From Eleftheria terrae (GTDB lineage: Bacteria > Pseudomonadota > Gammaproteobacteria > Burkholderiales > Burkholderiaceae_C), in the NCBI RefSeq assembly GCF_030419005.1, contig NZ_CP106951.1, positions 1,302,001 to 1,366,000 of the forward strand: a stretch of DNA of 64,000 bases, in the 5' to 3' direction. Of the stretch, positions 37,806-49,032 are shown piece by piece. The position numbers were made by a program, and so were the translations under genes. Each line of letters starts with the position of its first letter. The stretch's first letter is position 1. The notes under the pieces are model-generated. The model made no database searches, was not told the DNA's origin, and saw only the letters and a list, made by a program, of their open reading frames with translations.

Positions 37806-39602
37806 TCAGCGTTCCACTGCGCCGAGGTCCATCGCCGCGCCCTTCACCGTGCGGGTGGTGGGCAGCGCGCTGCCGTCCAGCTGTGCTTGCACCGGGAAGC
37901 CGGTCGGCGCCACCGGCGCGCCCTTGGCGGCATCCACCAGCTTGCTGCCGGCCAGCGGCACGAAGGTCTTGAGATCGATCGGCGTGCCGGTACCGGTGAT
38001 CAGGTTCGACGCGCCGTTGAGCTTGCCACCCACGGTGTGCCACGGGCCGGCATCGCTCCAGCGGGCATCGATCCAGTTGCGGTACAGGTTCACGATGCCG
38101 CCCGCCTTCGACGGATCGGCGTACGCGCCTTCGTTGTCCTGCTTCTCGCGCATCCGGGGGTAGTCGACCGTGGGCGCGAAGCTGAACACGTTGTCCCACA
38201 CCTCGGCCTTCTCGTCGATGGTCGAGAGCTGGAAGATCACCGCATAGCCGTTGCCGCCGATGTGCACCGTGTTGTTGAAGAAGTACAGCGTCCCCTTGCG
38301 GTAGCTGGCTTCATTGCCGCCATGGTCGCCACCGTAGTGGATGGTGGTGCCCTGCGTGCCGTCCTTGGTGATCTGGTTGCCGTAGACGTAGGTCTTGCGA
38401 TAGCTCGGATCGGCCTTGACAGCCTGGAAGTAGTCCTCGGCTTCCACCAGGTCGATCGAGTGGGCGCCACCCTCGAGCCGGTTGTAGCGGATCACGGCGC
38501 CGGCCGACCGGTCCTTGATCTGGTTGCCATAGGCGCCGCTGCGCAGCGGACCATAGTGGTTGAACTCGTACACCACCCCCACGCTCTGGATGTAGGTGTT
38601 GTGCACCAGCTCGACCCCGGCCACGCCGTTGCCGTGCATGTAGTTGCCGGCAATGCGCAGGTTGCGGGTCACGGCGAAGTCGCCGTCTTCCTTGGAGTTA
38701 CTGAAGATGGCGTGGGTGCAGTCGTCGATCTCGTTGTCGGCGATCACCACGTTGTGGCCGCGCTCGACCCAGATGCAGGCACCGAACTCCACATAGTTGC
38801 GGCGCTGGCCGTTGCTGTCGGTGAACTGGTTCTTCGGATGCGCGCCGCGGATGTGCAGGCCATCGATCTGGACGAACTTGGGATACGCCTCCCACGCCTC
38901 GGTCTGCAGACGGTTGACGACGATCACCGAGCGCGACTCATGCAGCTCATGGCCATAGGCCAGACCACGGCGGGCCACCGCGTCCTTGCCGTCGATGATG
39001 GGGCGCTCGCCGCTGGCGCTCGGCACGCCGCAGACACGCACCGGTGCGTCGGCGCGGCCCTGCGCGGCCAGCAGCACCTTGCCACGGTAGGGAGTGGCGC
39101 GATGGAAGATGCGCACGGTGTCGCCGGCGGCCAGCTTGTCCCAGGGCACCTGGTCAAGTTCCTTCAGCTGGTTCGCGCCGGTGCCGACCTGGTAGTCCTT
39201 GCCCTTGCCGGACGGCTGGCAGGCCTTCAGCGCCAGCTGCTCGGGAGCGGGGGCAGGAGCGGGATTCGGCGTGGGCGTGGGTGCAGGCGGCGTCGGTGCA
39301 GGAGGAGTCGGAGCGGGCGGCGTCGGCGCAGGCGGCGTCGGTGCGGGCGGCGTGGGGGCCGGTGGCGTCGGCGCGGGCGGCGTGGGGGCCGCCGGCTTGC
39401 GGACCCAGGTGTTGCCGTCCCAGTACCAGCGACGACCCATGGCGTCTTCGCGCTCCTGGCCTTCGGACGCATTGGCGGAGGACAGCGCCTCGTCCGTGGA
39501 AGCATCGCTTCCGCCCCCGCCACAGGCGGACAGGACGGCGCAAGAGGCGAACAGGTGAGCAGCCCAGGCAAGGCGGGCGCGTTTGGTCAGATCTTTATTC
39601 AC
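37806..39602 (-). CDS. Secreted right-handed parallel beta-helix lipoprotein with Pro-rich spacer (copy 2)
   Basis: A 598-residue predicted lipoprotein with lipobox L-S-A-C-G-G-G-G. It is followed by a short region with R-R-W-Y-W-D-G-N-T-W, then about eight APTPP repeats, then the same beta-helix domain as copy 1 (20546-22375), nearly identical over long stretches. GTG 39602 gives a normal signal peptide; ATG 39626 would add eight residues and cannot be excluded. It is probably anchored in the outer membrane with the helix presented beyond the spacer. Function unknown; polysaccharide binding or cleavage is inferred from the fold and the EPS neighbourhood. A clear terminator follows. Confidence 0.82.
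   Translation of the reverse strand: MNKDLTKRARLAWAAHLFASCAVLSACGGGGSDASTDEALSSANASEGQEREDAMGRRWYWDGNTWVRKPAAPTPPAPTPPAPTPPAPTPPAPTPPAPTPPAPTPPAPTPTPNPAPAPAPEQLALKACQPSGKGKDYQVGTGANQLKELDQVPWDKLAAGDTVRIFHRATPYRGKVLLAAQGRADAPVRVCGVPSASGERPIIDGKDAVARRGLAYGHELHESRSVIVVNRLQTEAWEAYPKFVQIDGLHIRGAHPKNQFTDSNGQRRNYVEFGACIWVERGHNVVIADNEIDDCTHAIFSNSKEDGDFAVTRNLRIAGNYMHGNGVAGVELVHNTYIQSVGVVYEFNHYGPLRSGAYGNQIKDRSAGAVIRYNRLEGGAHSIDLVEAEDYFQAVKADPSYRKTYVYGNQITKDGTQGTTIHYGGDHGGNEASYRKGTLYFFNNTVHIGGNGYAVIFQLSTIDEKAEVWDNVFSFAPTVDYPRMREKQDNEGAYADPSKAGGIVNLYRNWIDARWSDAGPWHTVGGKLNGASNLITGTGTPIDLKTFVPLAGSKLVDAAKGAPVAPTGFPVQAQLDGSALPTTRTVKGAAMDLGAVER
38200..38333 (-). repeat. 134-bp perfect direct repeat, copy B
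   Basis: Identical to 20943-21076 in the same orientation, offset by 17257 bp. It lies within the beta-helix domain of the second lipoprotein gene. Confidence 0.88.
39270..39394 (-). repeat. 15-bp tandem repeats encoding a Pro-rich spacer
   Basis: About eight imperfect 15-bp units encode A-P-T-P-P pentapeptides after the lipobox of copy 2. Copy 1 has a longer, more irregular version at roughly 21990-22230. Confidence 0.8.
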
Positions 39603-40167
39603 GGCGAAACCCCAATGACCCCACATATCGGCCGGCGTCCTGGGGCAGCGGGCGCTGCCTCGATCCGTCGGCCTATTCCAGTGCCAGGGGCTCACCGCGT
39701 GGGAGCGGGTCGGCCACCTCTTGTATTGGCGCTGGTCCTGTGTCCGCCGCGAATGTCCGGCGGGTACTCCTTTGAATGCGGCGGAATGCTAGGTGGGGCT
39801 TAGGGCTCTTCTGTAAGCGAAGTAACGCTCCCGTAACGACATGTGCTTGCCGCGGCAAGTGTTCACCCTCGCTGCAAAGGGCCTGGGGCGGCCGCATCGC
39901 CAGCTATACCGAAACCTAGGGTTCTCCTGGAGGCAGGCACAGCCGATGCGCTAGCCGCCTCCAGGGGTTACAAAGTGGCGCGAGTTCGTGGAAATGTGTC
40001 CCACGCAACTCGATGTGTGAAGCAGTTCACGTTTCTGACGGTCTGACCGCAGGAAATTGGCATTCCCCCGGTTTCTCGTCAGCCGGCAGCGACAAAGCCA
40101 AGCGGCGTGTCAAACCACCGCAGCCGGTCGCGGCTGCACAAAGGGCGCCGCCGGGCGGCGCCGCTGG
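39603..40167. other. ~565-bp intergenic region, lower GC, candidate regulatory zone
   Basis: It is the least GC-rich stretch of the window and has no supported gene. Direct repeats GTAACG at 39822-39827 and 39833-39838 are 11 bp apart, about one helical turn. A perfect 14-bp palindrome CTTGCCGCGGCAAG lies at 39846-39859. The region should carry the promoter of the lipoprotein gene and the end of the export operon. A T-tailed terminator for the latter was not found. Confidence 0.5.
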
Positions 40168-42252
40168 TCACGACCGCAGGCTGGCCTGCGGGTGAATGGC
40201 AGCGTCTTCCTGCCACAGCCAGGCACTGAGGTGCTCCGCCATGCGGGCGGCGGGGCCGCCGTCCCAGTAACCGGCCTCCTCCTGCCGCGGGCGGGTGCGA
40301 GCGGCCGCCTCGCCCACCAGGGCCAGGGCGCGCTGCACCTCGTGCACCGCACCGGCCTCGCCGAACTCGGCCGGATGGCCGGCGGCAACCAGGCGCACCA
40401 CCGGGACGCCCAGCGCGCGCGCCTCCTCGGCCAGGTCGGCATCGCCGCCGGCCAGCAGGCAGTTGGCGCGTTGCAGCAGGCCCAGGCGTTCCAGGTAGCC
40501 GAGCCCGCTCAGCGCATCGATCTTGCTGTTCTTGATCCAGCGTCCCAGGCCCACCCGCTCGAGCGCCGAGCGGGTCTCGTCCTGCATGGGCCAGATCACG
40601 CGCAGGTCCGGCGGCATCGCGACAAAGCCGGACACCAGGTCGCTCAGGACTTCAACCCGGGTCGATTCCGGCTCGAACTGCAAGGTGACCAACACATAGC
40701 CGTCTTGCGGCTTGAGGCCGCGGGCTGCAGCGGTCTCGCGCTGCAGCGTTGCCTCCGCCTCGGCAGCTGCCGGCACCGCCAGGTGCAGCAGGTTGAGCAT
40801 CAGGTTGCCGAAGCAGTGCACCCGGTCGGCAGGAATGCCTTCCCGGTAGAGGGTGTAGTGCGTGCTCAGCTCGTTGGTGTAGAGGGCGGTGGCCAGGCGG
40901 TCCAGCAGGATGGCATTGCTGTCGGCGCCAAAAGGATCGCCGCTGCGCCTGCCTGCCTCGGCGCGCACCACCGGCACGCCGGCCTTGTGCGCCGCCAGGC
41001 TGCAGGCGAGCACATCGTCATTGCTGCCGATGGCCATCACCGCGGCGGGCTGCAGCTCCAGCAACAGCTGGTCGAAGGCAGCCAGGACCTGCGTTGCGCG
41101 AGGACCGAAGCGCTCACCCCGGGCCTGCAGGTGGACGTCCAGCGCCGGCCGCGGCAAGACCTCGGCCAGCTCACCGGGCAGGCGCACGTCGGCCTGCAGA
41201 CCGCCATTGAAAGTCACGACCGCCGGCAGCTCGGGCTGCCTGGCACTTTCGGACGCGAAGGCGCAGGCCTTCATGTAGCTGGCCGGTGAGTCGACCAGGC
41301 AGACGATCGGCCGCTGCAGGGACACGCCGGCCACATGCAGCTCGCGGACCGCTTCGGCGGGCAAGGCAGGCAGCGGATCATCACCGGCCCCGGACTCGGC
41401 CGCCGCCGGCTTGGAAACCGCCGCGACCAGCGTCGTCTCGCCGACCTCGCCCCGCATTTCGCGGGCCGTCTGCATCACGAGCGTGGCGCTGACCTCGTCG
41501 CTGTTGCCGAGGTACGCCCCGAGCAGCAGGCGGTTGCACAGCAGGTTGATGCGACGCGGGATACCGCCGGTCCAGCGGTGGATTTCCTCGAAGGCCGCGT
41601 CATCGAACGAGGGACGGTCCTGCCAGCCGACACGGCGCAGGCGGTGCTCGACATAGGCCCGGGTCTCGACCACGTCAAGCGGGCCCAGGTGGCAGGACGC
41701 GATCACCCGCTGGCGGAACTGCTCCATCGCGCGCGATTCGAGCAGCTTGCGCAGCTCCGGCTGCCCGACCAGGAAGCTCTGCAGCAGCGCATGGTGCTCC
41801 AGCTGGAAGTTCGACAGCATGCGCAGTTCTTCGATCGCCTCCAGGCTGAGGTTCTGGGCTTCGTCCACCACCAGCAAGGCGCGCCGGCCGCTGGCCGCCA
41901 CCGCGGTGAGGAAAGCCTCCAGGCTGGCAATCAGCTCGGCCTTCGTCTTGCCGGCCGGCGCAATGCCGAAGGCGGTGCAGATTGCGCGCAGCAGGTCACC
42001 CGATTCGAGCTGGGTGCTGACCACCTGGGCGGCCACGACCTGCTGGCGGTCGAGCCCGCCGAGCAGCGTGCGCACCAGCGTCGTCTTGCCGGCACCGATG
42101 TCACCGGTGACCACGATGAAACCCTCGCCCTGGTAAACGCCGAAACGAAGGTAGGCCAGCGCGCTGGCATGGCCGCGGCTGTCGAAATAGAACGACGGGT
42201 CCGGGTTGAGCTGGAAGGGCGCGCCTGAAAAGCCGAAGTGCGATTCGTACAT
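40168..42252 (-). CDS. ExeA-like ATPase fused to a WecB (UDP-GlcNAc 2-epimerase)-like domain
   Basis: A 694-residue two-domain protein. Residues 1-~270 are the exosortase-A-associated AAA ATPase type: Walker A G-D-I-G-A-G-K-T-T (50-58), Walker B L-L-V-V-D-E (126-131), and G-G-I-P-R-R-I-N at ~229. Residues ~314-670 follow the non-hydrolysing UDP-GlcNAc 2-epimerase fold: V-P-V-V-R-A-E-A-G-R-R-S, a Y-R-E-G-I...F-G-N stretch, and E-E-A...G-V-P-V. Key epimerase positions are altered: the usual P-E-E before N-R is F-G-A-D-S-N, and the H-R motif after L-V-T reads L-Q-F-E. In related loci these are two separate genes (from memory). The epimerase half may be regulatory or structural. Confidence 0.83.
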   Translation of the reverse strand: MYESHFGFSGAPFQLNPDPSFYFDSRGHASALAYLRFGVYQGEGFIVVTGDIGAGKTTLVRTLLGGLDRQQVVAAQVVSTQLESGDLLRAICTAFGIAPAGKTKAELIASLEAFLTAVAASGRRALLVVDEAQNLSLEAIEELRMLSNFQLEHHALLQSFLVGQPELRKLLESRAMEQFRQRVIASCHLGPLDVVETRAYVEHRLRRVGWQDRPSFDDAAFEEIHRWTGGIPRRINLLCNRLLLGAYLGNSDEVSATLVMQTAREMRGEVGETTLVAAVSKPAAAESGAGDDPLPALPAEAVRELHVAGVSLQRPIVCLVDSPASYMKACAFASESARQPELPAVVTFNGGLQADVRLPGELAEVLPRPALDVHLQARGERFGPRATQVLAAFDQLLLELQPAAVMAIGSNDDVLACSLAAHKAGVPVVRAEAGRRSGDPFGADSNAILLDRLATALYTNELSTHYTLYREGIPADRVHCFGNLMLNLLHLAVPAAAEAEATLQRETAAARGLKPQDGYVLVTLQFEPESTRVEVLSDLVSGFVAMPPDLRVIWPMQDETRSALERVGLGRWIKNSKIDALSGLGYLERLGLLQRANCLLAGGDADLAEEARALGVPVVRLVAAGHPAEFGEAGAVHEVQRALALVGEAAARTRPRQEEAGYWDGGPAARMAEHLSAWLWQEDAAIHPQASLRS

Positions 42253-42260
42253 GAGGTTTC

Positions 42261-43814
42261 TCAGAAGCGGTGGCCCAGGCCGACAAAGCCGGCGGATTCC
42301 TGAGCTGAGCCGGTCACGCTGGAGTCGAGCAGCGCACGGCGCAGGCCGACGCTGACCTGGGTCTGCGGCGACAGATTGTGGTGCAAACCTGCACGCAGCA
42401 CTTTCTCATGGCTGCGCGAGCCTTCCAGCAAGCCCTGCCCCACCACCCGTGCCCAGGACAAGCCGAGGTCGGCCTGTGTGGTGGCGCTCAGGCGGCGGTT
42501 CAGGTTGAACGCGATGCCGCGCTGTTCGTTGTCCGCGCTGCCGCCGCCCAGGTCGGCCAGGGGGTCGTCGGCCCGCCGCAGCCGTTCGAGCTTGCGAACG
42601 TACAGGGTGGCAGTGAGCGTCGTACGCCGCCCCAGCAGGGCCAGGCTGGCAGAGGTGTCCTGCTCCAGCTGTGCATAGTTCGAGAACAGCTCCACCGGGC
42701 GCAACAGCTGGGCCGGCAGGCCCAGGCGGGCGATCATGTCCTGCACCAGCTGGCGCCGCTGCACAGGATCGGGGTGCCGCGTGGTCAGGATGGCATCCAG
42801 CAGGGATGCGGTGTCGCCGCCACTGCTGCCCAGCCGCTGGGACGTGCTGAGGGCCACCGGCTGGCGGCTGGCGCGCACGGTGAGGGCGACAAAGGGCGAG
42901 CGGTGCTGCCATTGCAGGTTCCAGCCGGTGCCCATGAAGCGACGCTCCACCGCAGCCTGCAGCTCGGTGCGCTCGGTGGGCGACCATTGCAGCCGGGCAC
43001 CGTAGATGGCGTCGCTCTCGTCGGTGCCCAGGAAGGCGCTGCGCTCATGGCCGGCGACCAGGCTCAGCACCAGCTCCGGGTCCACCGCATAGCTGGCCAC
43101 CAGGCGGATCGCCTCGAGCTCGAGCGCGGAGATGCTGTCGCCGCCATAGGAAGCATCGTCGCGGGAATACTCCACCGATCCACCAAAGGGCAGCGGCTGC
43201 CGGCTGAGGCGGACCAGCTGCTGTTGCTGGTAGACGCGGTCGCCCCCGGCGCTGGTGGCGCTGTCGTCACCGCTGCGCCGGGTCCAGGCGTGTTCGCTGC
43301 GTGCCAGCAGCGCCAAGGTGGGCGATAGCCGCCGGTCGATGGCAGGCGCCACCCGCAGCCGCTTGGTGGTGGCCTGGTTCAGCGAAGAGCCTGCCTCGGG
43401 CTGGCCGGCGAAGGCGTCGGAAGCGCTTTGCTCGACGGCGGCATTGGCGTCAAGCCGCAGCCACTGCTCCACCGGCTGCGACTCCAGCGATAGGCGGGCA
43501 TTCGGCAGCAGCCGGTCGGCCAGCGTGCCGCGTGCGTAGTGCACCGCATTGGCGCCCACCTCGCCCGAGAGCTTCAGCCGCGCACCGTCGCGCTGCAGCC
43601 GCAAGCGTGGTGCGACGTCGAGCAGCACATCGCCATGGGCCTTGCCACTCTGGCCATAGGTGCTGTTGCTGGTGGCCGTGAGGGTCGTCGTCACATCGGC
43701 CTCAGCCCGCAACGGCTGCGCGCCGGCCGGCGTCGCCGCCAGGCAGCACATGGCCAGTTGCAGGGACCGCGTGAGGCGCAGCAAGGGAAAGCAAGGGCGG
43801 TGCGCACCAGGCAT
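42261..43814 (-). CDS. PEP-CTERM/exosortase-A system-associated outer-membrane beta-barrel protein
   Basis: A 517-residue protein with a signal peptide (C-C-L-A-A-T-P-A-G-A) and a long series of alternating hydrophobic beta-strands ending in a C-terminal Phe (G-F-V-G-L-G-H-R-F), the outer-membrane barrel signature. It lies 14 bp after the tyrosine kinase gene, where the uncharacterised PEP-CTERM-associated barrel (TIGR03016-like) is usually found. It probably forms part of the EPS secretion path. ATG 43814 is taken as start; the long frame upstream overlaps the kinase gene and is not real. Confidence 0.83.
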   Translation of the reverse strand: MPGAHRPCFPLLRLTRSLQLAMCCLAATPAGAQPLRAEADVTTTLTATSNSTYGQSGKAHGDVLLDVAPRLRLQRDGARLKLSGEVGANAVHYARGTLADRLLPNARLSLESQPVEQWLRLDANAAVEQSASDAFAGQPEAGSSLNQATTKRLRVAPAIDRRLSPTLALLARSEHAWTRRSGDDSATSAGGDRVYQQQQLVRLSRQPLPFGGSVEYSRDDASYGGDSISALELEAIRLVASYAVDPELVLSLVAGHERSAFLGTDESDAIYGARLQWSPTERTELQAAVERRFMGTGWNLQWQHRSPFVALTVRASRQPVALSTSQRLGSSGGDTASLLDAILTTRHPDPVQRRQLVQDMIARLGLPAQLLRPVELFSNYAQLEQDTSASLALLGRRTTLTATLYVRKLERLRRADDPLADLGGGSADNEQRGIAFNLNRRLSATTQADLGLSWARVVGQGLLEGSRSHEKVLRAGLHHNLSPQTQVSVGLRRALLDSSVTGSAQESAGFVGLGHRF

Positions 43815-43828
43815 GCGTCGTCCCCGGC

Positions 43829-44920
43829 TCAGTAGCCGTAACGGGCGACCGAAGCCGGACCGCGCGTCTTGTTCAGCACCGACATCACCACCGGGCAGCT
43901 TTCCACCGCCGCATACGCTTCGGTGGCGGCCGCACGGGTCGTGCGGCCCGCCTCGACCACCATAACCACCTGCCCCACCCGGGTGGCCAGCACCCGGGAT
44001 TCGGTGGTCGGCAGCAGCGGCGGCGCGTCGAAGATCACGATGCGGTCGGCATAGCGTGTGGCCAGTTCGTCGAGCAGACGTTCCATCGCACTGCTGGCCA
44101 GCAGTTCGTTCGAGTTGATGCCCGGCGCGCCGGTCGGCAGCACCGACAGCTTGGGCACGTTGGTGCGCAGCAGCACTTCGGACAGGTCGAGCCCGGGGTT
44201 CTTGAGCACGTCCAGCAGCCCGCGGTCGACGCCCAGGCCGAGCCGGCTCATCACGGCCGGTCGGACGACGTCGGCATCGACGAGCAGCACGGTCTTGTCG
44301 ACCTCCATCGCGATGCTCAGCGCCAGGTTGATGGCGCAAAAGCTCTTGCCTTCGCCAGGCATCGCGCTTGTCACCAGGATCAGGTTGGGGCGGTGCAGCG
44401 GCGCCGCCGACTGGCCCTGGGCGTTCTTGATCAAGGGGCGCTTGATGACGCGAAACTCGTCGGCCAGTTCGGCCTCCGGTCGGCCCGGCACCAGGTAGCC
44501 GGCACGCGCCAACCGGTCGAGGTCGAGCGCCACGCTGCGCGAGCGGCGCTCGGCGCCCGCGCCGGCATCAGCCGGCGCGTCGATGTGCGGCAAGGCCGGA
44601 AAGCCGGAGCCTGCCAGCGCATCGCCCGGCTCTGCGGCGGGGGATCGGGCTGCCCCGGCGGGCTCGGCGAACGGCACGGCCGGCGGCGCTGACAGCGGCC
44701 TTGCTGTCGCGTGGGCCGGCCCCGCAGCGGGTACAGCAGGCCTCGGCGGCACGGCGACCGGGGCCGGCTCGGCGCCCCCAAGCGGCGGCACCCGCCGCAC
44801 GATGGGCTCGCTCGGCTCCTGCGGATCCCAGCTGCCGAATTCCGAAGGCGCCCAGGGCACCTCCACGCCGGCGCGGCGAAGTTCTTCGAGCCGCTTGGCG
44901 GCCAGTTCGATGATGCTCAT
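43829..44920 (-). CDS. EPS tyrosine autokinase (CpsD/CapB-type, exosortase-A-associated)
   Basis: A 363-residue cytoplasmic BY-kinase lacking a membrane half. A Pro/Ala-rich N-terminal linker (~residues 30-125) leads to the P-loop domain: Walker A S-A-M-P-G-E-G-K-S, Walker A' V-L-L-V-D-A-D-V-V-R-P, and Walker B I-V-I-F-D-A-P-P. The C-terminus ends R-Y-G-Y, a reduced tyrosine cluster for autophosphorylation. Known role: cycling phosphorylation controls chain length with the Wzz-type partner, whose gene lies next to it. ATG 44920 is chosen; a GTG at 44929 is possible. Confidence 0.9.
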   Translation of the reverse strand: MSIIELAAKRLEELRRAGVEVPWAPSEFGSWDPQEPSEPIVRRVPPLGGAEPAPVAVPPRPAVPAAGPAHATARPLSAPPAVPFAEPAGAARSPAAEPGDALAGSGFPALPHIDAPADAGAGAERRSRSVALDLDRLARAGYLVPGRPEAELADEFRVIKRPLIKNAQGQSAAPLHRPNLILVTSAMPGEGKSFCAINLALSIAMEVDKTVLLVDADVVRPAVMSRLGLGVDRGLLDVLKNPGLDLSEVLLRTNVPKLSVLPTGAPGINSNELLASSAMERLLDELATRYADRIVIFDAPPLLPTTESRVLATRVGQVVMVVEAGRTTRAAATEAYAAVESCPVVMSVLNKTRGPASVARYGY

Positions 44921-44935
44921 GCTTGCCACCCGTCC

Positions 44936-46483
44936 TCAGACCCGGCCCTGGAGGGTGATCCAGCCGACCCACGCCATATTGGCGACGAAGAACACGCCGG
45001 CCGCGCCAGCGAACTGCAGCCGCTCGCGCCGCTCCTTGCGCCGCCCCTCGTCGGTTTGAACCACCCCGACGCTGCCGAGCACCGGGCGCTTGCTCAACTC
45101 GCGCAGGGCCTTCTCGTCGTGGAAGGACGGGAAGAGCCGCGTCATCAGGAAGGCTGCCACGCAGCCGGCCGCAGCCGAGCCGAGCATGGCCAGCAAGCCC
45201 AGGATCTTGCGGCTCGGGAACACCGGCCCCGGCGAAACGCGGGCCGGCTCCACCATGCGGAAATCGGTCAGGTGCGACGACTGGTCGATCTTCACGCCCA
45301 GCGAGGCGGCCTCACGGCGAGACACCAGTTGCTCGTAGTTCTTCCGGATCACTTCATAGTCGCGATTGAGCTGGGCCAGCTCCGCTTCGACTTGCGGCAC
45401 CCGCCCGGCCAGCGCGCGGATCTGCTCGAGCCGGGTCTGCTGCGCACTCAGCTGGCCACTGAGCGAGGCGACGTTGGCCTCGGCCTCCGCCAGCGCAATG
45501 CGAATGCGCTGGAACACGGGGTTGGTCGCCGCCGCCTGCCGGCCGCGGCCGCTGACGGCTCGCGCGTCGACTTCCTGCTTCTTCTGCTGCTCGATGGCCG
45601 CAATCGTGCGCCGCACGCTGATGACATCCGGATGATCATCGGTGTAGCGGCGCAGCAGGTCATCGAGCTGGCGGCGCTGGGCGTCCAGCCGGGCATCGAG
45701 CTCGGACACCACCGGCCCACCGGCCGGCAACATCGCCTCGGGGGGCAGCTGCGGCTCCTCGGCGTTCAGCTCCTTGCGCAGCGCATCGCGCGAGCGCTCG
45801 GCGGCGCTGAGGTCGATGCGCAGCTTGTTGACCTCGTCCGACAAGGTCGACATGCGGGCGAAGTAGTCCTGGTTGGACATGCCGGTGAGGCCGAAATTGC
45901 GCAGCTTGAAATCCTTCAGGCGGTTCTCGGCATCCACCAGCTTGGACTCGTATTCCTGGATCTGCTCGTCGATGAAGCGGCTGGCTTCCTGCGAATCGCG
46001 CTTCTTGCCACCGATGCTGGCTTCCATGAACAGGTTCACCAGGCCCTCGACCACGCGATGGGCGCGCTGGCCGTCGCTGTCGCGGTAGCTGATGGTGTAG
46101 AGGTTGCCGCCGCCGCTCGGGGTGACGCGGATCTTCTTCATCAGCGCGTCGATGGTCCGCGCGCGCAACTTGGGGTCGGAACTGGCGAGGTCCATCTCCG
46201 GCGTGTCCACCAGCTTCTCGACGTTCGGCCGCGAGATCAGTGTCTTGGCCAGCATGCGCACCTGCTGGTCGACATCGGGCTGGAAGGCCAGGCCGGCCAT
46301 CAGGGGCTTGAGCACCGTCTGCGTGTCGACGTAGACCTGCGCGGTGGCCTCGTAGCGGTCCTTGTAGACGAAGATCACCGCGCCGCTCAGCAGCGCGACC
46401 GCCCAGGCGACCAACAACGCGATCCAACGGCGTTGCCATACCTCGTACAGCACGCCAGCGGCCTGGCGAACATATTCGTTCAT
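44936..46483 (-). CDS. EPS chain-length determinant (Wzz/PCP-type)
   Basis: A 515-residue inner-membrane protein. An N-terminal transmembrane helix (residues ~20-40) is followed by a large periplasmic region with a long coiled coil (~180-400), then C-terminal membrane helices around 430-450 and 495-512. This is the exosortase-A-associated chain-length protein layout (TIGR03007-like). It partners the separate tyrosine kinase encoded just downstream. Together they set polymer length and contact the export lipoprotein. Confidence 0.9.
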   Translation of the reverse strand: MNEYVRQAAGVLYEVWQRRWIALLVAWAVALLSGAVIFVYKDRYEATAQVYVDTQTVLKPLMAGLAFQPDVDQQVRMLAKTLISRPNVEKLVDTPEMDLASSDPKLRARTIDALMKKIRVTPSGGGNLYTISYRDSDGQRAHRVVEGLVNLFMEASIGGKKRDSQEASRFIDEQIQEYESKLVDAENRLKDFKLRNFGLTGMSNQDYFARMSTLSDEVNKLRIDLSAAERSRDALRKELNAEEPQLPPEAMLPAGGPVVSELDARLDAQRRQLDDLLRRYTDDHPDVISVRRTIAAIEQQKKQEVDARAVSGRGRQAAATNPVFQRIRIALAEAEANVASLSGQLSAQQTRLEQIRALAGRVPQVEAELAQLNRDYEVIRKNYEQLVSRREAASLGVKIDQSSHLTDFRMVEPARVSPGPVFPSRKILGLLAMLGSAAAGCVAAFLMTRLFPSFHDEKALRELSKRPVLGSVGVVQTDEGRRKERRERLQFAGAAGVFFVANMAWVGWITLQGRV

Positions 46484-46634: not shown

Positions 46635-47270
46635 TCAGAACCAGCTCTGCGGCACGATGATGATGTCGCCCGGCTTCACGTCGACATTGGCGGAGATGTC
46701 GCCCCGCTTGAGCAAGTCCTTCAGTCGCACGCTGAACTGCTTGCCGCCCTCGGCACCGCGCACGAGCACCGCGCCGTTGCCATTGGCATAGTCGGTCAGG
46801 CCACCGACCTGGATCATCACGTCCAGCAAGGTCATGTTCTGCCGGAACGGCACGGCCTGCGGGCGCGCGGCCTCGCCGACGATGCGGATCTGCTCCGAGA
46901 ACGTGCCCTGGAAGTTGCTGACCACCACCGTCACGACCGGATCACGCACGTACTTGCCCAGCACCTTCTCGATGTCGCGAGCCAATTCGGCCGGGCTGCG
47001 GCCGGCGGCCATCACGTCTTCGACCAGCGGGGTGGAGATGCGACCGTCCGGCCGGACCGAGACGGTGGACGACAGCTCGGGATTGCGCCAGACGACGATA
47101 TTGAGGGTGTCGAGCGCACCGATCTGATAACGGTGGTCCGGCGTCTGTGCCGAGACCGGCGCCGGCGGGTACTGGCCGGTGGTGCCGCAGGCCGTCAGCA
47201 AGGCGGCAGCAGCGGCAGCCAGCCAGACACGCAGGGAGCGACGCATGCCGCCCGAGCTCGAATTCCACAT
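46635..47270 (-). CDS. Polysaccharide export outer-membrane lipoprotein (Wza-type)
   Basis: A 211-residue secretin-like export protein. A signal peptide with lipobox L-L-T-A-C is followed by the Poly_export domain (D-T-L-N-I-V-V-W...V-R-P-D-G-R-I-S-T-P) and a SLBB-like domain (~residues 130-200). It ends I-I-I-V-P-Q-S-W-F, typical of the exosortase-A-associated export protein. ATG 47270 is chosen over 47246 because of a perfect AGGAGG 9 nt upstream. It is shorter than E. coli Wza, as usual for this type. Confidence 0.92.
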   Translation of the reverse strand: MWNSSSGGMRRSLRVWLAAAAAALLTACGTTGQYPPAPVSAQTPDHRYQIGALDTLNIVVWRNPELSSTVSVRPDGRISTPLVEDVMAAGRSPAELARDIEKVLGKYVRDPVVTVVVSNFQGTFSEQIRIVGEAARPQAVPFRQNMTLLDVMIQVGGLTDYANGNGAVLVRGAEGGKQFSVRLKDLLKRGDISANVDVKPGDIIIVPQSWF

Positions 47271-47279
47271 CAACGATTT

Positions 47280-47285
47280 CCTCCT
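47280..47285 (-). promoter_or_regulatory. Shine-Dalgarno AGGAGG deciding the export lipoprotein start
   Basis: On the minus strand AGGAGG stands 9 nt before ATG 47270. This gives a product eight residues longer than the internal ATG 47246 would. Confidence 0.75.
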
Positions 47286-47310
47286 AACCGGACCGCTGTC
47301 ACTGTCGCGC

Positions 47311-48717
47311 TCAATGGGCGCCTTCGCGGAACAGCACCACACTCACCGTCTCGATCAGGACCAGAAGGTCCAGGAAGAGGGAGTTGTTCTTCACATAGTA
47401 CAAGTCGTACTGGTGTTTCTTTCGGGCATCGTCCACCGAGGCGCCGTAGCGGTAGCGAATCTGTGCCCAGCCGGTCACGCCGGGCTTGACGCTGTGGCGG
47501 AGGTCGTAGAACGGGATCTGCTCCTTCAGCTCCTGCACGAAGCTGGGCCGCTCGGGCCGCGGGCCGACCATGCTCATTTCACCGCGCAGCACGCTCAGCA
47601 GCTGCGGCAGCTCGTCGATGCGGGTCTTGCGGATGAAGGCGCCCACCCGGGTGATGCGCGAGTCGTTCTGCGTGGCCCAGCGGGCAACGCCGTCCTTCTC
47701 GGCATCGCTGCGCATGCTGCGGAACTTCAGGCACATGAAGGAGCGGCCGCCTAGGCCCACTCGCTCCTGCCGGTAGATGATGGGGCCCGGGCTGTCCAGC
47801 CGGATCAGCAGTGCGGTCAGCAGCATGATGGGCGCCGACACGACCAGCAGGAGCAGCGAAGTCACGATGTCGAACACGCGCTTGGCCACCGTGCGCGCCG
47901 GACCCTGCACGAAGCCCTGGCTGTAGATGAGCCAGCTGGCCTTCAGACTGTCGATCGGCACTTCGGCCTTCGCGCGCTCGTAGAAGCCGGCCAGGTCCAG
48001 CACCGGGGTGCCGCGAATGCGGCAGGCCAGCAGCTGGTCGACCGGGATGCCGCCACCGCGCTGCTCACGCACCGCGACGATGATCTCGTCCACATCGTTC
48101 TGCGCCACCACCTCCTCGATGGACAACCCGCGCGCGAACACCTTGTTGGCCGGCACGGCAGCCGCACCTTCGGTGGACGTGGGGTAGAAACCAACCACAC
48201 GCCGCTCGATGCGCCGCAGCGCGGCCAGATCGGCCGCCACGCTCTGCGCTTCGGGACCAGTGCCGACGATGAGCACCCGGGGCGCGCCGATCAGGCGCTG
48301 CATCATGAAGACGGCCAGCCGCACCACGATCAGGCCGACCAGCAGGTAGGCCATCACGAGCGCGACCACATAGCCCGGCGAGGCGCCGCCGGTCACCGAG
48401 TCGATCAGCAGGTAGGTGAGGCAGGCACCGATGAACAGGGCCAGCAGTCCGCGCCGCACGATGCTTCCGGCGCCCATTGGCTCGGCACCCTGGCGGTACA
48501 GGCCCACAAAGGAATACAGCAGCAGCATGGCCAGCGCGAAGCCGGCTGCCAGCCAGAACATGTCGGCCTGTGCGACGACCTTGACATGGTCACCCGGCAC
48601 CCAGTGAATCATCGAAGCGATGAACAGGGCTGCGAGAAAACACAGCAGGCTGTCCGCGATCAACTCCAACAGCGTTGATAGCGCGACATGATGATGAAAA
48701 ACCCGGAACACCCTCAT
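47311..48717 (-). CDS. Undecaprenyl-phosphate sugar phosphotransferase (EpsB-like initiating transferase)
   Basis: A 468-residue polyisoprenyl-phosphate hexose-1-phosphate transferase. Four N-terminal membrane helices are followed by a nucleotide-binding-like domain (~residues 145-250). The catalytic C-terminal domain starts with a membrane helix near 290 and contains [14 protein letters not shown] and K-P-G-V-T-G-W-A-Q. It puts the first sugar phosphate on the lipid carrier. GGAGG precedes ATG 48717 closely. It heads the export operon (sugar transferase, export lipoprotein, chain length, kinase, barrel, ATPase), as in exosortase-A-type EPS loci. Confidence 0.93.
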
Positions 48718-49032
48718 TCTGTCCTCCCTAGTAGCTCCCTCGGCCGAACGACAGGCGAGCGGTAAGAGCCTGAAACTCTTGCAACGGCATTCTCCCCAAT
48801 CGGACTTTTCGCACAATCCTTTAAACAGGGGCTAGCGCCCCCTTGAGTGAGGGGTCGCTCCGCTCGAAAACAGACACTTTCGCAAGAGACGTAAGGGAGG
48901 TAGCAGGATGTGGGCCATGCGGCGCTGTGGCGCAGGTCCCAAGAACAGCAAGGCCAGCCAGGTGCTTGCATGACAGAACTGTATGAAGCTGAGACACCGC
49001 AAGTGAGCCACAGCCCCCTCATCCACAATGTG
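48718..49032. other. 315-bp region upstream of the EPS export operon
   Basis: No gene is supported. It contains a promoter candidate (listed separately) and a GGGGC/GCCCC hairpin (near 48827-48840). The start side faces the end of the CDP-DAG synthase gene, so all its promoters should point to the minus-strand export operon. Confidence 0.45.
48789..48816 (-). promoter_or_regulatory. Candidate sigma70-type promoter of the EPS export operon
   Basis: On the minus strand TTGTGC (48816-48811) and GAGAAT (48794-48789) are separated by 16 bp, about 70 bp before the start codon. Both boxes match four of six consensus bases. No sigma54 -24/-12 site was found. Confidence 0.3.

Follow-up and report, generated by a model that had tools for sequence, protein, structure and literature searches.

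A polysaccharide-export ATPase fused to a WecB-like domain without its catalytic set, in Burkholderiales loci without a nearby exosortase A

The closest relatives of the protein presented here are an AAA+ ATPase associated with the XrtA/PEP-CTERM system (TIGR03015) and a UDP-GlcNAc 2-epimerase of the WecB type (TIGR00236), which are usually encoded by separate genes. We know of no established role for the XrtA-associated ATPase; WecB-type enzymes are dimers. For psc1 of Rubrivivax gelatinosus, a table in PMC3684757 lists the ATPase (RGS1_10397) and the epimerase (RGS1_10398) separately, and PMC4793188 describes GNE as an active enzyme that also has a kinase domain. For the term combinations searched, no paper was found in the literature. 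Within the family of the window genome (the window being the whole 64-kb stretch of Eleftheria terrae DNA that was analysed) 40 separate-gene loci were read for comparison, together with all loci of the fused lineage. According to our reading of the open reading frames, wecB directly adjoins or overlaps the ATPase gene in 17 of these 40 loci and is non-adjacent within the stretch examined in the other 23; the separate ATPase frames examined have about 350-415 aa. An initial interpretation made from the sequence alone (the sequence-only reading) had taken separate genes to be the rule in such loci, and these neighbours as well as the Rubrivivax table bear this out.

In the window the following features are found:

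40168..42252 (stop codon included), minus strand: fused gene, AAA+ ATPase plus WecB-like pseudo-epimerase, 694 aa, single open reading frame
41452..42252, minus strand: residues 1-267, XrtA/PEP-CTERM-associated AAA+ ATPase (TIGR03015)
41323..41451, minus strand: residues 268-310, linker, with pLDDT <50 at residues 271-295
40198..41322, minus strand: residues 311-685, GT-B / UDP-GlcNAc 2-epimerase fold without the catalytic set
42261..43709, minus strand: TIGR03016 outer-membrane protein directly upstream of the fusion, 232.3 bits against a cut-off of 90.85
43829..44929, minus strand: XrtA-associated tyrosine autokinase (TIGR03018)
44936..46483, minus strand: polysaccharide chain length determinant (TIGR03007)
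46635..47342, minus strand: exopolysaccharide export protein (TIGR03027)
47311..48816, minus strand: EpsB-type sugar transferase (TIGR03013)

The ATPase half reaches 371.3 bits in the TIGR03015 profile search (cut-off 324.5) and carries a Walker A (GDIGAGKT) and a Walker B motif (LLVVDEA). The epimerase half matches the PF02350 family and retains the two-domain GT-B fold in the predicted structure, but it misses the TIGR00236 equivalog cut-off with 79.4 against 210.15 bits. Both domain matches lie in one open frame, which confirms the earlier description of a single 694-residue protein. The model of the full-length fusion has a pTM of 0.58 and therefore does not give the placement of the two halves relative to each other. 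The TIGR03016 match covers residues 211-692 of the listed frame 42261-44339, and the EPS core is present in the window, with TIGR03007, 03013, 03016, 03018 and 03027 all above cut-off. The next gene downstream of the fusion (37806-39695) encodes a protein of 629 aa, which contains a PTPPAP repeat tract and gives a weak beta-helix match; its match in Aquabacterium sp. A7-Y is 74% identical.

The catalytic set of WecB, which we take to be D95, E117, E131 and H213 in E. coli numbering, was located by alignment of the fused and separate proteins with E. coli K-12 WecB, whose sequence carries these four letters. Glu131 is also named in PMC4793188. The window protein has S410, E432, A443 and Q525 at these positions, which means that only E432 is kept. 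For the fused set 43 rows remained after removal of exact duplicates by the last 150 residues. They include one cut frame (L101) and two divergent class-B rows (L055 744-2798, L058 9493-11604); a different protein (L049 9828-11804), a wrong-strand frame (L009 2604-3275) and a row in the wrong frame (L083) were left out. Not one of the catalytic residues is kept in 15 rows, one in 22 and two in six; three or four are found in none of the 43. H213 is retained in two rows only, both from Aquabacterium MAGs (L093, L094). Among the separate WecB rows 20 of 21 keep all four residues, the metagenome protein P0006 keeps two, and the set is complete in 16 of 16 locus-adjacent separate WecBs. The claim that the known catalytic set is missing from the epimerase half is thus upheld, and the alignment restores it in none of the 43 fused rows.

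A TIGR03015 match over cut-off occurs in 105 of 299 genomes of the family. The ATPase is fused in 24 of these (G005 has two fusions), and in five more it is short, without the epimerase domain, and belongs to the same lineage; the resulting 29 fused-lineage genomes were all recognised by the open frame or by the short, low-scoring ATPase. A single-pattern contig scan yielded 22 loci with the fusion in Aquabacterium, Rhizobacter, Caldimonas, Methylibium, Ideonella and Piscinibacter as well as in unclassified Burkholderiales, Burkholderiaceae, Comamonadaceae and Proteobacteria, and the 43 aligned rows come from many assemblies. Some fused proteins (L047, L053, L054, L056, L057) are 777-1046 aa long with the starts as predicted, the extra length lying before or between the domains.

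The phylogeny of the ATPase was reconstructed from 80 domains, namely 46 separate (six from outside the family), 29 fused and five ATPase-only. One branch with support 100/99 splits the 46 separate domains from all others. The ATPase-only rows are nested inside the fused side (group support 85/43), and this position suggests that the domain was lost there; in these five genomes the epimerase domain is dispensable, since they have the ATPase without it. Because the tree is unrooted and some rows, above all L058_11526, are long-branched, we infer rather than read from it that the fused state is derived.

The same split separates loci with and without exosortase A. The window genome has the export core and no exosortase A by PF09721: its only match to this family lies 3.24 Mb from the locus and is an XrtB (371.4 bits; XrtA model 163.2 against a cut-off of 208), and tblastn at 1e-6 gave no hit for FemAB (TIGR03019) within the 64-kb window. 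New in the lineage as a whole is that, unlike separate-gene loci, its loci have no exosortase nearby. None was found by PF09721 within 20 kb at 30 fused-lineage places of the 29 genomes, whereas 28 of 29 sampled separate-gene loci (chosen from 76 genomes over cut-off, mostly the best-scoring) have one 3.0-5.6 kb away, the exception (G027) being near a contig end. An exosortase lies on the same contig at eight fused-lineage places, only on other contigs at 16, where no distance can be measured, and is missing at six; the nearest is an XrtB at 20.9 kb (G197). Contig ends are close in some drafts (e.g. G223, G005 C11, G119), and eight of 24 fused-lineage places sit on short contigs. A tblastn search detected both FemAB and XrtA in all 11 separate-gene loci tested but in none of 24 fused and none of five ATPase-only loci. 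The deacetylase was hit in 11 of 11, four of 24 (one weak) and none of five, respectively; the absences of exosortase A and FemAB are not independent counts, since they follow one split on the gene tree. The co-absence of exosortase A is probably a single evolutionary event. In the stretch examined, three of the 24 fused loci (L040, L051, L057) have none of the searched export genes and two (L049, L055) have only EpsB.

Each of the 42 PF09721 matches in the fused-lineage genomes was assigned a type: 30 are XrtB over cut-off, eight XrtQ and one XrtA, and the remaining three, judged from the match stretches only, are best to XrtB just under its cut-off. Six of the 29 genomes have no match. Exosortase A is therefore absent from 28 of 29, with the exception of G199, where it lies on another contig than the fused gene (L116, G199:C1, 301.6 bits). 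All ten typed exosortases of separate-gene loci are XrtA.

A separate intact epimerase gene does occur in the window genome, elsewhere. This one further PF02350 protein (L106, G000:C2:3355380-3356366, 363.5 bits) has all four catalytic residues and is flanked by a DegT aminotransferase, a GFO/IDH/MocA oxidoreductase and a UDP-sugar dehydrogenase, a cassette which we take to resemble the Wbp pathway. Outside ATPase-epimerase fusions, PF02350 matches occur in 17 of 29 fused-lineage genomes (in two only as split matches) and are missing in the other 12; in the separate-gene sample a match of at least 300 bits is present in 28 of 29 genomes. Near one fused gene a 659-aa protein (L049:9828-11804) reaches 302 bits with the WecB model (cut-off 210) with intact site residues, and its N-terminal 288 residues match neither Pfam nor NCBIfam.

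In some genomes there is also a second class of ATPase-epimerase fusion that is divergent, with an ATPase 42-57% identical to that of the window (L055:744-2798, L102:4892-7117, L103:5761-7956, L104:3757-6012, L105:632-2647, L109:6993-9104). At most one of the four catalytic residues remains in each of the six that were aligned. Its gene sometimes lies a few kb from the first, and three of the five ATPase-only genomes have it 3-6 kb away. An independent ATPase-WecB fusion was found in G746, a genome of the same class and another family (L110, G746:C1:655000-669000). It is one open frame, 734 aa from the start of the ATPase match, in which none of the nine catalytic and contact residues checked is replaced, and its locus has matches to FemAB and the deacetylase as well as an XrtA (356.7 bits). 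A fusion can therefore exist without the catalytic set being lost, and this one hints that ATPase and epimerase work together.

Our tentative preference, at a little below even chances, is for a joint reading in which the ATPase descends from an XrtA-locus ATPase and the epimerase half from a WecB-like epimerase often encoded beside it, and in which the dead domain is a pseudoenzyme that serves as scaffold or regulatory module for the export ATPase in an EPS locus without exosortase A. One lineage of Burkholderiales has the two as a single protein, whose epimerase half is without the catalytic set but retains the GT-B fold of two domains, and neither exosortase A nor FemAB was found in its loci. 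The AAA+ half would do the work, and the dead half, as a non-enzymatic arm, may hold ATPase subunits together or, alternatively, dock the ATPase onto the export machinery or onto sugar enzymes of the cytoplasm.

The sequence-only reading had proposed that the dead epimerase senses a nucleotide sugar. Such a domain would bind UDP-GlcNAc, UDP-ManNAc or a uronic-acid derivative and report precursor supply to the ATPase, which we consider unlikely. The UDP contacts can be followed at R10, H213, S290, E296 and R313, presumably the equivalents of GNE residues described in PMC4793188, as matched in part by alignment. The retained fold speaks for sensing, as does E296, which is kept in 32 of 43 fused rows; its equivalent contacts ribose in relatives according to PMC4793188. 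The window protein, however, keeps E296 only, with P323, Q525, G603 and P627 in place of the other four contacts; only one contact is likewise left in 20 of the 43 rows, and three have none. Four or five contacts are kept in 12 rows, which have lost D95 and E131 and in most cases H213 too; 11 of these 12 belong to an Aquabacterium-like branch and make up most of it. Judged from these residues, that branch looks binding-competent with broken catalysis, and the window protein seems to have lost both. Sensing is thus doubtful for the window protein and possible above all in the Aquabacterium-like branch.

It is improbable, in our estimation, that the domain is a decaying relict which the fusion made hard to lose and which has no role beyond not harming the ATPase. 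Such decay would agree with the nested ATPase-only members and with the variability of columns 131 and 213, which exceeds that of 77% and 84% of the columns in the fused set, respectively; the column of E296 is within the most conserved 11%. The domain also evolves faster than the ATPase. In eight close fused pairs its dN/dS is 0.08-0.28 (each <1, P < 1e-14) as compared with 0.03-0.09 for the ATPase halves; separate wecB genes show 0.05-0.23 (three pairs), and the comparison of the window protein with that of Aquabacterium sp. A7-Y yields 0.07 for the ATPase and 0.27 for the dead domain. Among 41 looser pairs (>50% identical) the dN/dS of the domain rises with distance, reaching 0.53 between the window and Caldimonas mangrovi and 1 or more in four pairs; at pN near 0.4 and above saturation and alignment error are likely and may account for this, but it weakens the claim of constraint. 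For close pairs the dead domain is under purifying selection, which argues against decay, as do its 30 most conserved columns, kept in 29-43 of 44 rows (the 43 rows plus L083), and its retention in 24 of 29 fused-lineage genomes.

That the GT-B cleft was remodelled for another sugar-nucleotide reaction, e.g. glycosyl transfer, appears quite improbable. At E. coli position 97, aspartate is found in 38 of the 43 fused rows and asparagine in 20 of 21 separate rows; moreover, D/E117-A-G-x-R, N134 and E296 are conserved among the fused rows. Both would fit a new active site. Most UDP contacts are nevertheless gone from the window protein, and in the alignment the solved Thermus relative 8sxy has aspartate at position 97 as well, so the residue need not be new there. 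An assembly artefact or a frameshift would be conceivable because the separate genes touch each other or share a few bases, but it is refuted by the recurrence of the fusion in 43 rows, which come from many assemblies, isolates among them, and its probability is practically nil.

The scaffold reading can be extended to an evolutionary scenario, which we regard as possible though rather doubtful: a locus enzyme would have been captured by the neighbouring export ATPase as a non-catalytic control or assembly domain while the locus was released from exosortase A. On the order of losses presumed here, the Aquabacterium-like branch would still show a ligand-binding, catalysis-dead intermediate. The lineage with a dead but retained domain and the G746 fusion with its apparently intact enzyme and its exosortase A represent a natural comparison for the role of the ATPase, and allow to ask whether this ATPase needs an exosortase. 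The annotations 'UDP-GlcNAc 2-epimerase' and 'XrtA/PEP-CTERM system' can mislead in fused-lineage genomes.

Among known systems the protein resembles the TIGR03015 ATPases by its score over cut-off, its Walker motifs and its position beside TIGR03016, 03018, 03007, 03027 and 03013 genes, but it differs from the separate members, which are shorter and stand in loci with XrtA (10/10 typed), FemAB and deacetylase (11/11). In contrast with WecB and the Thermus UDP-GlcNAc3NAcA 2-epimerase (8sxw etc.), D95, E131 and H213 are replaced. The G746 fusion has the same domain order in one open frame but keeps its nine residues, and its locus has XrtA, FemAB and the deacetylase. With GNE the window protein shares the principle that an epimerase fold is joined to a domain which uses ATP, but here this partner is an AAA+ ATPase and the epimerase site is broken.
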